Assembly: GCF_024518835.1 (NCBI RefSeq)
Contig: NZ_JANIGO010000002.1
Span: 377,522 to 441,521, forward strand
DNA length: 64,000 nt
Direction: 5' to 3'
Origin: Limnobacter humi
GTDB lineage: Bacteria; Pseudomonadota; Gammaproteobacteria; Burkholderiales; Burkholderiaceae_B
The position numbers and the translations under genes are program-made. The notes beneath the pieces are model-generated. The model saw only the letters and a list, made by a program, of their open reading frames with translations, was not told the DNA's origin and ran no database searches. How positions within the stretch are numbered: the first letter of the stretch is position 1; each line of letters begins with the position of its first letter. This document shows, piece by piece, positions 45,601-49,852 of this stretch.

Positions 45601-45623
45601 GATCCGGTGCAACGCACCGGATC
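45601..45623. repeat. Perfect 10-bp inverted repeat with 3-base loop
   Basis: GATCCGGTGC-AAC-GCACCGGATC lies 23 bp after the membrane protein stop, in the 371-bp gap before the nitrate-transport genes. The lack of a T run argues against a plain terminator. The GGTGC/GCACC arms recall NtrC half-sites, but in the wrong relative orientation. Confidence 0.6.
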
Positions 45624-45775: not shown

Positions 45776-45792
45776 TGGCACGGTCCCTGCTA
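45776..45792 (+). promoter_or_regulatory. Putative sigma-54 promoter of the nitrate-type ABC operon
   Basis: TGGCACGGTCCCTGCTA has GG-N10-GC (GG 45777, GC 45789) and differs from TGGCACR-N4-TTGCW at one position. A start about 12 bases on (near 45802) would place the first leader hairpin 4 nt into the RNA. Confidence 0.7.
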
Positions 45793-45805
45793 TTGGTTCA
45801 ACGTA

Positions 45806-45920
45806 GACCTTTGCCAAAGACGGATCAGGTCGAAGTTGCACTGAAATAGAACGGACAACGGCGTCCATCCCTTGCCAGGCCCATCGGTGGACCCGGCATT
45901 GGCGATGTTCGCCGTTTTTT
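45806..45920 (+). promoter_or_regulatory. ANTAR-type antitermination leader: two hexaloop hairpins plus intrinsic terminator
   Basis: Hairpin P1 (45806-45831) has stem GACCT/AGGTC, a 3x3 internal loop, CC/GG and hexaloop AAAGAC. Hairpin P2 (45853-45866) has GGAC/GTCC and hexaloop AACGGC. Both loops have A at position 1 and G at position 4, the feature recognised by ANTAR-domain proteins such as NasR and NasT. The 3' strand of P2 can instead pair with TGGAC at 45888-45892. GGCGA-TGT-TCGCC followed by G and T6 (45901-45920) is an intrinsic terminator, 28 bp before the binding-protein ATG. The layout resembles the Klebsiella nasF leader. No ANTAR gene is in the window. Confidence 0.68.
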
Positions 45921-45948
45921 ATTTTGATTTTCTAATGAAGGAAAAATC

Positions 45949-47286
45949 ATGGATTCGAACAAGCCATCCAAACCCGCAATGCTGCAGGACCTCGGAGGCG
46001 TGTCATCCGACCGCCGCACATTCATCAAGCAAAGCTCCCTGCTGATCGGTGCTGGCGTTCTGGGTTCAATGGCTGCACCCAGTATTGTACGGGCTCAATC
46101 CACGAGCCTGGAAACCAAGGCAGCCAAACTCGGCTTCATCGCCTTGAGCGATGCAGCCCCATTGATTATTGCCGAGGAAAAGGGATTCTTCAAAAAACAC
46201 GGCATGACCGACGTGGAGGTTCTGAAACAATCCTCGTGGGGAACCACCCGGGATAACCTTGTTTTGGGTGCAAAAAACAACGGCATCGACGGGGCTCACA
46301 TCCTGAGCCCGCTGCCGTATCTACTCACCACGGGTGCGGTCACGGCCAACAACGTTCCCACCCCCATGTCCATCCTGATGCGGTTGAATGTCAACGGACA
46401 ATGCATCTCTGTGTCGAATGAGTTCAAAGACCTGAAAGTTGGCTTGGACACCCGGGACTTTGGTCGGGCCATTCTCAAAAAGAAGGCCAGCGGCAAAGCT
46501 GTGAATGCGGCGATGACCTTCCCGGGTGGCACACACGACCTGTGGCTCCGTTACTGGATGGCAGCCGGTGCCATCAACCCGTTGACCGACATTTCTACGA
46601 TTGTGGTGCCACCACCCCAGATGGTGGCCAACATGAAAGTGGGCAATATGGATTGCTTCTGTGTGGGCGAACCGTGGAACCTTCAACTGGTTAACCAGGG
46701 CATTGGCTACACCGCACTGACCACTGGCGAACTGTGGCACAACCACCCCGAGAAAAGCTTCGCCATGCGCAGCGACTATGTGGCGGCCAACCCCAATGCG
46801 ACCAAGGCGATTGTAAAAGCCATCATGGAGGCACAAATGTTCTGCGACGACCCGGCCAACAAGGAAGAAGTGGCCAAGCTTTGCTCGCAGCGCCGTTGGT
46901 TCAACGTGCCGGTGGCCGACATTGTCGACCGCCTGAAGGGCCACTTTGACTACGGCACCGGCCGCGTGGTGGACAGCAGCCCGGAGACCATGAAGTTCTG
47001 GAAGGAATACACCTCTTACCCCTTCCAAAGCCATGACCTGTGGTTCCTCACAGAAAACCAGCGTTGGGGCTACCTGCCCGCCAAGCTGGACACCAACGCC
47101 CTCATCAAGAAAGTAAACCGCGAAGACATCTGGCGCACGGCTGCAGCAGAGTTGGGTGTCGACAAAAAGGACATTCCCAAATCGACCTCACGCGGCGTTG
47201 AGAAATTCTTTGATGGCAAGGTGTTTGACCCGGCCAAACCCAAAGCATATCTCGACAGCCTGGCCATCAAATCCATGAAAGGCTGA
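45949..47286 (+). CDS. Nitrate-type ABC transporter substrate-binding protein (NrtA/CmpA family)
   Basis: The 445-residue protein starts after AAGGA. It has a Tat signal (DRRTFIKQSSLLIGAGVLGS). The NrtA/CmpA core shows KLGFIALSDAAPLIIAEEKG, then KQSSWGTTRDNLVLG, DGAHILSPLPYL and DCFCVGEPWNLQLV. It binds nitrate, nitrite, bicarbonate or a similar anion in the periplasm. The leader with ANTAR-like hairpins and sigma-54 promoter favours nitrate. The permease and ATPase genes follow directly. No assimilatory nitrate reductase lies in the window. Confidence 0.92.
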   Translation: MDSNKPSKPAMLQDLGGVSSDRRTFIKQSSLLIGAGVLGSMAAPSIVRAQSTSLETKAAKLGFIALSDAAPLIIAEEKGFFKKHGMTDVEVLKQSSWGTTRDNLVLGAKNNGIDGAHILSPLPYLLTTGAVTANNVPTPMSILMRLNVNGQCISVSNEFKDLKVGLDTRDFGRAILKKKASGKAVNAAMTFPGGTHDLWLRYWMAAGAINPLTDISTIVVPPPQMVANMKVGNMDCFCVGEPWNLQLVNQGIGYTALTTGELWHNHPEKSFAMRSDYVAANPNATKAIVKAIMEAQMFCDDPANKEEVAKLCSQRRWFNVPVADIVDRLKGHFDYGTGRVVDSSPETMKFWKEYTSYPFQSHDLWFLTENQRWGYLPAKLDTNALIKKVNREDIWRTAAAELGVDKKDIPKSTSRGVEKFFDGKVFDPAKPKAYLDSLAIKSMKG

Positions 47287-48209: not shown

Positions 48210-49067
48210 ATGTCAGACCGCTTTCTCAATCTCTCCAAAGTTCACATGAACTTTGAAAAAAACGGCACCGTCAACCCGGTGCTGCGTGATGTCAATCTGG
48301 ACGTTCAACGTGGCGAATTCATTTCGCTGATTGGGCACTCGGGTTGCGGCAAATCCACCGTGCTCAACATCATCGCCGGCCTGCTTCGGGCCAGCGAAGG
48401 CGTGGTGCTGGTGGACAACAAAGAGGTGAACGCACCGGGGCCAGACCGAGCCCTGGTGTTTCAAAACCACTCGCTGTTGCCGTGGCTCACGGTGTATCAA
48501 AACGTGGAGTTGGCAGTGGACAAAATTTTCCGCAACAGCAAAACCGCAGCCGAACGGAAAGACTGGATTCTTCACAACCTGGAAATGGTGAACATGGGCC
48601 ACGCGCTAGACCGCCTGCCTTCTGAAATTTCCGGCGGCATGAAACAGCGCGTGGGCATCGCGCGGGCGTTGGCCATGGAACCCAAGGTGCTGCTGCTGGA
48701 TGAGCCCTTCGGTGCACTGGATGCGCTGACACGTGCCAAGTTGCAAGATGAAGTGATGCGCATTCAAAGTGAATTGCAAAACACAGTCGTCATGATCACC
48801 CACGATGTGGATGAGGCCGTGCTTCTATCGGACCGGATTGTGATGATGACCAACGGCCCGGCAGCCACCATCGGCCAAATTCTGGATGTTGATTTGCCCC
48901 GCCCACGCGACCGCATCGCCATGGCAGACGATACCCGTTACAACCACTATCGCCATGAGGTGCTGAGCTTCCTGTACGAAAAACAGCGCAAGGTTGAAGA
49001 CTTCGACAAGCACAAGCAGCAACGCAACAGCACGGTCGCATCCGGCTCGACGAAAGCGCACGCTTAA
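48210..49067 (+). CDS. Nitrate-type ABC transporter ATP-binding protein (NrtD family)
   Basis: The 285-residue ATPase follows AGGAG. It has Walker A GHSGCGKST, Q-loop VFQNHSLLPWLTV, a variant signature ISGGMKQR, Walker B VLLLDEPFGALD and the H-loop in MITHDVDEA. It powers anion import. It lacks the extra regulatory domain of cyanobacterial NrtC. It ends the three-gene operon, before a weak terminator at 49096. Confidence 0.93.
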   Translation: MSDRFLNLSKVHMNFEKNGTVNPVLRDVNLDVQRGEFISLIGHSGCGKSTVLNIIAGLLRASEGVVLVDNKEVNAPGPDRALVFQNHSLLPWLTVYQNVELAVDKIFRNSKTAAERKDWILHNLEMVNMGHALDRLPSEISGGMKQRVGIARALAMEPKVLLLDEPFGALDALTRAKLQDEVMRIQSELQNTVVMITHDVDEAVLLSDRIVMMTNGPAATIGQILDVDLPRPRDRIAMADDTRYNHYRHEVLSFLYEKQRKVEDFDKHKQQRNSTVASGSTKAHA

Positions 49068-49128: not shown

Positions 49129-49258
49129 GACAATTTAACTTTGTTAATTATTCAACTGAAAAATAAATAACATTTTTGCCTGTTCTCCCGCTTTGGGTGC
49201 ATGCACCCAATGATTAACATGGGACAGCGAATCAACACCACCCTTGACCTTGCTGACC

Positions 49259-49852
49259 ATGCAGTTACCCATTCAATATCAAGCCGCGCTGGCGGTGGCC
49301 CACCAAGCAACCAGCCTCAAAACCCGGACATGGCCCACACCGTTCTTTCCCGTTCATCACCATGCAGAACAGATGGCCACCGAGGCGATGCGATTGAACC
49401 TGGACAGCGCCGCCGTCAAGGCCGCCATTCTTCATGATCTGGTGTTGATGAGCCCGATAACCCTGGACGACATTGAACGCGTGGCGGGTCATGAAACCGC
49501 AGACTTGGTTCAACTGATGACACCGGATACTCGCGTGCTTGAAAACCCGGCGCAATTTGATCTCACGGCCTATTGCGCAGACGTGGCTCGAAGCAGCACT
49601 GTGGTGCAAACACTGGTGCTCATGGACTGGCTTCAAACTGCATCGCTGATCGGCGCTTCCAGCCCGGCGCTGGCTCCAGGCCTTGGATTGCATTTGCAAC
49701 AGGTTGCAACAGCACTTCACCAGGCACCCCACGTGCTGCAGGCGCGAGCCGCCTGGATTGCCAGTTGGCTTGAACGTCGCCCCTATGAGCAACAAGTTGC
49801 GCAATACGCCGTGCAATCCAGTTTACGTAGTAACCCTGTCGCAAATTTGTGA
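49259..49852 (+). CDS. HD-domain-like protein, possibly RelA/SpoT hydrolase-related
   Basis: Taken from the ATG at 49259, the 197-residue protein has an HD-like pattern: PFFPVHHHAEQMATE then AAILHDLVLMSPITLDDIE and GHETADLVQLMT. This resembles the metal-dependent phosphohydrolase HD part of ppGpp hydrolases. It also has long C-terminal helices. The second conserved Asp of a full HD site is not obvious, so activity is uncertain. It stands between the nitrate-type and TRAP transporters without evident link to either. Confidence 0.6.
   Translation: MQLPIQYQAALAVAHQATSLKTRTWPTPFFPVHHHAEQMATEAMRLNLDSAAVKAAILHDLVLMSPITLDDIERVAGHETADLVQLMTPDTRVLENPAQFDLTAYCADVARSSTVVQTLVLMDWLQTASLIGASSPALAPGLGLHLQQVATALHQAPHVLQARAAWIASWLERRPYEQQVAQYAVQSSLRSNPVANL

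Follow-up and report, generated by a model that had tools for sequence, protein, structure and literature searches.

The window, by which we mean the whole 64,000-nucleotide stretch analysed here, contains three consecutive genes that, judged by their protein family matches, form an NrtABC-type nitrate transporter operon. Upstream of this nitrate-type ABC operon lie a sigma-54 promoter, two hairpins with six-base loops that have A at position 1 and G at position 4 (A1/G4 hexaloops), and then an intrinsic terminator. The features are as follows, where alignment A1 is the leader alignment described below and MFE stands for minimum free energy:

45776..45791, + strand: sigma-54 (-24/-12) promoter TGGCACGGTCCCTGCT, agreeing with 11 of the 12 specified positions of the consensus
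45806..45831, + strand: hairpin P1, present in the MFE fold and covarying in alignment A1
45832..45852, + strand: linker between P1 and P2, 21 nt, without a third hexaloop
45853..45866, + strand: hairpin P2, the putative antiterminator, near-invariant in alignment A1 and alternative to the terminator
45857..45920, + strand: intrinsic terminator, MFE -40.8 kcal/mol against -33.6 kcal/mol with P1 and P2 forced
45901..45913, + strand: hairpin of 5 pairs, GGCGA/TCGCC, separated from the U-run by one base and compatible with a formed P2
45949..47286, + strand: substrate-binding protein of a nitrate-type ABC transporter (NrtA-like, NMT1_2), Pfam PF13379, 347.2 bits
47301..48170, + strand: ABC permease of the nitrate type (NtrB/NrtB), TIGR01183, 317.5 bits with a cut-off of 209.05
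48210..49067, + strand: ABC ATPase of the nitrate type (NtrCD family), TIGR01184, 344.3 bits with a cut-off of 291.8

Among the matches listed, the top-ranked named relative of the NrtA-like protein belongs to Limnobacter sp. CACIAM 66H1 (75% identity), and identity reaches up to 77% in the best segments of 80 loci; in a 61-genome family sample, no near-full-length match above 41% identity was found outside the protein's own genome. Directly after the transporter genes, an open reading frame at 49244-49852 has weak HD-domain similarity (RelA/SpoT-like), below the cut-offs. On the other side, upstream of the promoter, a perfect 10-base inverted repeat (GATCCGGTGC/GCACCGGATC, 45601-45623) was seen by eye and may mark where the preceding gene ends.

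The preliminary description of this DNA had placed a promoter, two A1/G4 hexaloops and a terminator in the leader, and all of them were found there in the window sequence. The promoter was scored against the -24/-12 consensus of sigma-54. Hairpin P1 reads CC[AAAGAC]GG, with its hexaloop at 45816-45821, and P2 reads GGAC[AACGGC]GTCC, with its hexaloop at 45857-45862, each loop being closed by a C:G pair. The four pairs of P2 are contiguous; those of P1 fall into two and five, separated by a 3x3 internal loop beyond which the lower stem GACCT/AGGTC forms (45806-45810/45827-45831), a shape that by eye is common to the relatives L002-L004. The linker between the hairpins shrinks to 15 nt if an extra AAC/GTT stem forms. 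In the terminator, AACGGCG (45857-45863) pairs with CGCCGTT (45910-45916) and CATC (45866-45869) with GATG (45904-45907), and the U-run at 45915-45920 is separated by 28 bases from the ATG at 45949. Together, P1 and P2 provide the dual A1/G4 hexaloop that characterises ANTAR substrate leaders. Folding, which had been proposed as a check, gave -49.5 kcal/mol for 45800-45950 (z -3.0), a value reached by 0 of 200 shuffles. Taken singly, the parts are common: a promoter consensus of 11/12 is reached at three places in the window, and the two strands of the window hold 179 A1/G4 hexaloop hairpins with at least 4 pairs, only one of which, P2 itself, has the GGAC[..]GTCC form. It is the arrangement of the parts and its conservation that exceed chance.

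Conservation was followed from the first gene, for which at least 521 relatives were found among the candidates and 80 loci were kept. Alignment A1 comprises the window and 24 of the first 29 loci (L002-L030), chosen for having a P2-like hexaloop and a sigma-54 site of the TGGCA[CT] type; L018, L024, L025, L027 and L029 were left out by eye as not fitting these patterns. A TGGCA-type site thus stands before P1 in 24 beta-proteobacterial leaders of A1 as a condition of selection, passed by 24 of the 29 loci, and the invariance of the P1 and P2 loops is partly a product of construction, the loops having been located by A1/G4 patterns. The stem of P1 covaries over the 25 leaders, with changes on both sides in 8 of its 10 pairs. 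For the whole structure, 84.7% of the cells are paired, compared with 71.2% after shuffling and 33.5-48.9% after sliding. The covariation score of 0.296 (0.111 shuffled) was not attained in any of 500 shuffles; relatedness among the sequences inflates such figures. The earlier expectation that the hexaloops are conserved in relatives is thereby borne out by the alignment and the covariation of P1, within the limit that loop invariance is partly constructed.

A covariance model trained on the 24 relatives, with the window excluded, was then searched in the window's own 3.2-Mb genome, where it returned 12 places at E <=10. The window ranked first with 47.9 bits (E 3.7e-11), so the covariance-model check suggested beforehand singles it out as the best place in the genome. 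The second place, with 22.1 bits, was also outside the training set and lies on contig C23 (C23:372868-372955; L115, L152); a model including the window gave 55.2 bits for the window, 20.9 bits for this second leader and 15 places. The second leader consists of a sigma-54 site CTGGCACACCCCTTGC, the hairpin GGAC[AACGGT]GTCC and a U-run, has a loop-to-loop distance of 57 nt without a third A1/G4 hexaloop, and stands directly before a gene matching NirB (TIGR02374, 927.6 bits, cut-off 578.35). The next long open reading frame after nirB is a molybdopterin oxidoreductase with Fdh-alpha and NasA/NasC as best named matches, all below the cut-offs. Given the identities of nrtABC in the window and of nirB, the two best leader matches in the genome both precede nitrate-assimilation genes. 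A second nrtABC-like set in the same genome (G000:C1:274168-277328; L112:4169-7329), with a histidine kinase and a NarL-like regulator nearby by eye, was not counted as a member of this regulon, the ANTAR leader model having no match near it.

The ANTAR gene, which had been expected elsewhere in the genome, is indeed there: a search of this 99.7% complete genome gave one ANTAR match, on C23 and hence on a different contig from the window. It encodes a protein of 212 aa with Response_reg and ANTAR domains, and the gene overlaps that of a 332-aa NMT1_2 protein by one base. By its domain content, this receiver-ANTAR gene beside an NMT1_2 (NasS-like) gene is a NasT-NasS arrangement. The pair adjoins neither target operon, the nirB leader being about 10 kb away, and its near neighbours are, by eye, not nitrate genes. 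A NIT domain had no match in the genome, the control genomes of that search being equally without a match. Where the preliminary description had left the regulator as of NasR or NasT type, the NasT-NasS kind is present, whereas the NasR/NIT kind was without a match in a search with silent controls.

Leader and regulator also occur together more widely. For 200 genomes of the order, drawn alike for ANTAR and for a leader model with stricter filters (R1), the two sets were taken as identical, the listed handles agreeing and the non-matching genomes being listed in part. All 26 genomes with a leader match at E <=1e-5 had an ANTAR gene, compared with 101 of the 200 overall, and in 21 of the 26 the leader lay within 5 kb of it; the Fisher p of 4.8e-9 is too small since the genomes are related. 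At E 0.01, leader matches occurred in 73 genomes, 56 with and 17 without ANTAR; several of the weak matches were fetched and lacked P2 and the U-run, and matches of this kind are probably due to chance.

As to control at the promoter, the window's genome combines the -24/-12 site with rpoN (466.6 bits), and ntrC is also present (638.5 bits for the main piece), both over their cut-offs. A sigma-54 promoter also precedes Klebsiella nasF, and the consensus of NtrC sites is TGCACC-N5-GGTGCA. Over the 250 bases upstream, the best NtrC-like sites of the 25 leaders have a mean of 2.72 mismatches against 4.19 in mononucleotide shuffles, while the best one in the window has 4/12 mismatches against 4.36 in shuffles and is at chance level. 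Because the group is enriched and the window is at shuffle level, control by NtrC is plausible for the leader group on sequence grounds and unproven for the window.

The structural models also bear on how the leader could switch. In the MFE fold of the window, the terminator takes the P2 loop and the first base of the 3' arm of P2, and a fold made to contain P1 and P2 is 7.2 kcal/mol less stable. The GTCCA/TGGAC stem (45863-45867/45888-45892) that had been put forward as a possible switch can be drawn, but it is absent from the MFE fold and reaches only -32.1 kcal/mol when forced, against -40.8 for the terminator; in these predicted folds, the main switch is P2 versus the terminator, not this stem. 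Of the 25 leaders, 24 have an MFE fold in which three or all four bases from the 3' arm of P2 pair with the terminator; in the window, the one exception, two of the four do so. Once P2 is formed, 23 of the 25 are predicted to have no hairpin of at least 4 pairs at a distance of 2 nt or less from the U-run, and such a hairpin survives only in the window (5 pairs, 45901-45913) and in L004 (4 pairs). From these two counts, we suggest that in the group a protein holding P2 would shorten the terminator and part it from the U-run, which is the mechanism published for ANTAR proteins (PMC3369936, PMC3369931). In the window, P2 and the long terminator stem are mutually exclusive, and the short 5-pair hairpin is compatible with P2; since it remains one base from the U-run, P2 may not fully disable termination, and a weaker terminator could survive.

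From its anatomy, its conservation and the regulator found in the genome, we propose that the leader, a well-supported member of its kind, is a NasT-type (ANTAR) antitermination leader behind a sigma-54 promoter that switches nrtABC by nitrate or nitrite, and we put the probability of this reading at about 0.88. The anatomy, the 47.9 bits of the model and the NrtABC matches agree with the preliminary description of a sigma-54 promoter and a two-hexaloop ANTAR leader ahead of a nitrate-type ABC operon. In Paracoccus, NasT is released from NasS in a nitrate- or nitrite-dependent manner (PMC3795266). We propose the following hypothetical multistep mechanism, in which (i) RNA polymerase with sigma-54 would start about 10 bases past the -12 GC; (ii) by default, the nascent leader would fold P1 and then the terminator, absorbing the loop of P2 together with some of the 3' arm; (iii) transcription would end, with the terminator formed, about 28 bases before nrtA; (iv) nitrate or nitrite would cause the sensor NasS to let go of NasT, as transferred here from Paracoccus; (v) NasT on the A1/G4 hexaloops would hold P2 and prevent the terminator, so that nrtABC would be transcribed; and (vi) the nirB operon on contig C23, with the same promoter and leader, would be controlled by the same NasT.

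The closest parallels are the NasS-NasT systems of the Paracoccus denitrificans nasA leader and of Azotobacter and Pseudomonas, in which NasT is likewise encoded beside NasS and hairpins and a terminator precede nitrate-assimilation genes (PMC3795266, PMC5424462); in contrast to these, nasTS here adjoins neither target operon, and the window's target operon encodes a transporter. The C:G closing pairs and A1/G4 positions of both hexaloops agree with the SELEX results for NasR (PMC7496416). The leader also has the layout of Klebsiella nasF (PMC3369936), where P1 is followed by a P2 that overlaps the terminator, each loop carries A1 and G4 and a nitrate assimilation operon lies downstream; this is the layout that a NasR-type one-component (NIT-ANTAR) antiterminator would use. 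However, the only ANTAR match in the genome is the receiver-ANTAR protein beside the NasS-like protein, and no NIT-ANTAR gene was found there in the search with silent controls, which makes a regulator of the NasR kind scarcely credible here. The Enterococcus eut leaders share dual A1/G4 hexaloops and a P2 embedded in the terminator (PMC3369931, PMC8934654), but their linkers measure 5-12 nt as compared with 21 nt here, and EutV is activated by phosphorylation, whereas NasT is released from NasS. Several points count against a NasT-type leader, namely that only two contiguous pairs stand beside the P1 loop, that the 21-nt linker is beyond the tolerance of EutV and that activity was reported to be relatively unaffected when the second hairpin, HII, of P. 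denitrificans was mutated (PMC5424462).

A different form of attenuation (ribosome stalling, a riboswitch or an sRNA), with the A1/G4 loops being incidental, would be expected to show the same fold better than shuffles and the same terminal terminator, as would any attenuator, and the short hairpin by the U-run that outlasts P2 formation would suit it. Against this stand the conservation of the hexaloop hairpins with a covarying stem and the association of the leader with ANTAR genes, and the leader has no Rfam family at gathering score; we regard such attenuation as unlikely. More improbable still is a plain terminator region with the operon controlled solely at the sigma-54 promoter. The promoter, rpoN and ntrC needed for this are all present, yet a terminator that stands after the promoter and before the first gene requires a bypass, and P1, which the terminator can do without, is nevertheless conserved. 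A leader of the NasT type, as preferred here, is a kind already known; the more interesting part lies in by-products concerning loop number, spacing and Rfam families, which we offer as leads.

For loop number and spacing, 95 candidate leaders were considered (25 of A1, 69 R1 matches and the nirB leader of the window's genome); a script kept the 62 with a sigma-54 site, P2 and a U-run and dropped 33, and P1 was found in 60 of the 62. A third A1/G4 hexaloop was absent from all 10 leaders with a linker below 14 nt and from all 21 with 14-24 nt (0.12 expected), and it was present in 13 of the 29 with at least 25 nt (0.83 expected from shuffled linkers) and absent from 16. Among hairpins with stems of at least 5 pairs in the long linkers, 12 of the 14 with six-base loops are A1/G4, other loop sizes also being present. 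The three-loop leaders (P1, Pm, P2) are L134, L140, L141, L142, L144, L145, L147, L149, L150, L205, L212, L218 and L002; the 13 are not independent, 12 being spread over five families of the order, with f13 contributing five, f6 four, and f20, f49 and f50 one each, and the 13th being the Limnobacter locus L002. Their distances are 13-21 nt between Pm and P2 and 16-34 nt between P1 and Pm, compared with 16-70 nt (median 33) between P1 and P2 in the 47 two-loop leaders. L202 and L207 have three loops too and were dropped from the count, their promoter being unrecognised.

The window leader is of the two-loop form, and its 21-nt linker lies outside the EutV-type spacing of 5-12 nt. A vestigial third loop in this linker, GTTGC[ACTGAA]ATAGAAC, considered by eye against L002, was rejected for its broken pairs. 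For EutV, natural linkers are reported to span 5-12 nt, with 14 nt drastically reducing induction (PMC3369931), and 20 added nt to abolish read-through, successive binding of the loops having been proposed (PMC8934654). Many long linkers are predicted to fold, but P1 was taken as too short or placed on a wrong hairpin in at least the window, L002, L003 and L004, and we draw no general rule that such folding brings P1 and P2 together. Among the matches listed for third or triple ANTAR loops in the open-licence literature, only PMC3369931 was on topic. A further variant is seen in 21 nrt leaders of Pseudomonas and Stutzerimonas (L031-L046, L051-L054, L058), many of them near-identical, in which the predicted 5' hairpin carries an A1/G4 hexaloop in 0 of 21, pattern matches in the 5' hairpins of L039, L045, L053 and L054 clashing with the predicted stems. 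In 17 of the 21, P2 has an A1/G4 loop; the other four (L052-L054, L058) have G at loop position 1. ANTAR genes were present in all 11 searched genomes of this set.

No Rfam family reached its gathering score in the leader, only tRNAs did so window-wide, and among the relatives a single tRNA was found in 14 of the 80 loci. The models of narK RNA (RF03032) and P11 (RF00625) align on the leader from first to last position, covering promoter and P2, at 14.2 bits each and thus far below the gathering scores of 43.2 and 70. Across 274 genomes of the class, the RF03032 model had 13 matches at E <=1e-3, which fall in 12 genomes; two of these matches are over gathering, and 11 of the 13 have two A1/G4 hexaloop hairpins of at least 4 pairs, and of the others, L160 has one convincing hexaloop and L161 has one inside an apparent coding sequence. 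Judged by eye from translated starts, the genes that follow these places (L153-L165) look like narK, nrtA/nasS-like, nitrate-reductase-like and nirB genes. In 11 pseudomonad genomes, RF00625 matched 16 places at E <=0.1, seven of them over gathering, with matches below cut-off in 2 of 14 controls. A nirB-like start follows all seven by eye, and six have at least two A1/G4 hexaloops of at least 4 pairs, L187 being the exception; three weaker P11 matches (L188-L190) precede, by eye, a cobA-like start. Most narK RNA (L153-L165) and P11 (L181-L190) matches look like promoter, hexaloop and terminator leaders of nitrate genes. For the narK leader of B. diazoefficiens, NasT hairpins had already been predicted, yet narK rose in a nasT mutant (PMC6759348). 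We found no work in the open-licence literature that ties narK RNA or P11 to antitermination, which is weak evidence of novelty. P11 may already have been treated in a 2012 paper on nirBD antitermination in P. aeruginosa.

At even odds, we put forward that NasT-type leaders belong to a single widespread class that is modular in both the number and the spacing of its loops, comprising two loops 16-70 nt apart, three loops in a row, or the pseudomonad P2 with a plain hairpin in place of P1. Such a class would depart from EutV spacing and fit a loop-to-loop hand-over of NasT as the RNA emerges, and narK RNA and P11 would be members whose models include promoter DNA.

In summary, the unlinked NasS-NasT pair is tied to two operons of one genome, in a two-gate model in which nitrogen status would act at the sigma-54 promoter and nitrate via antitermination, and which is testable. 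Beyond this genome, the longer linkers and three-loop forms of the natural leaders described here bear on the ANTAR spacing rule derived from EutV, and such RNAs make models of simultaneous binding and of hand-over testable. Two Rfam families, narK RNA and P11, thereby gain a likely function.
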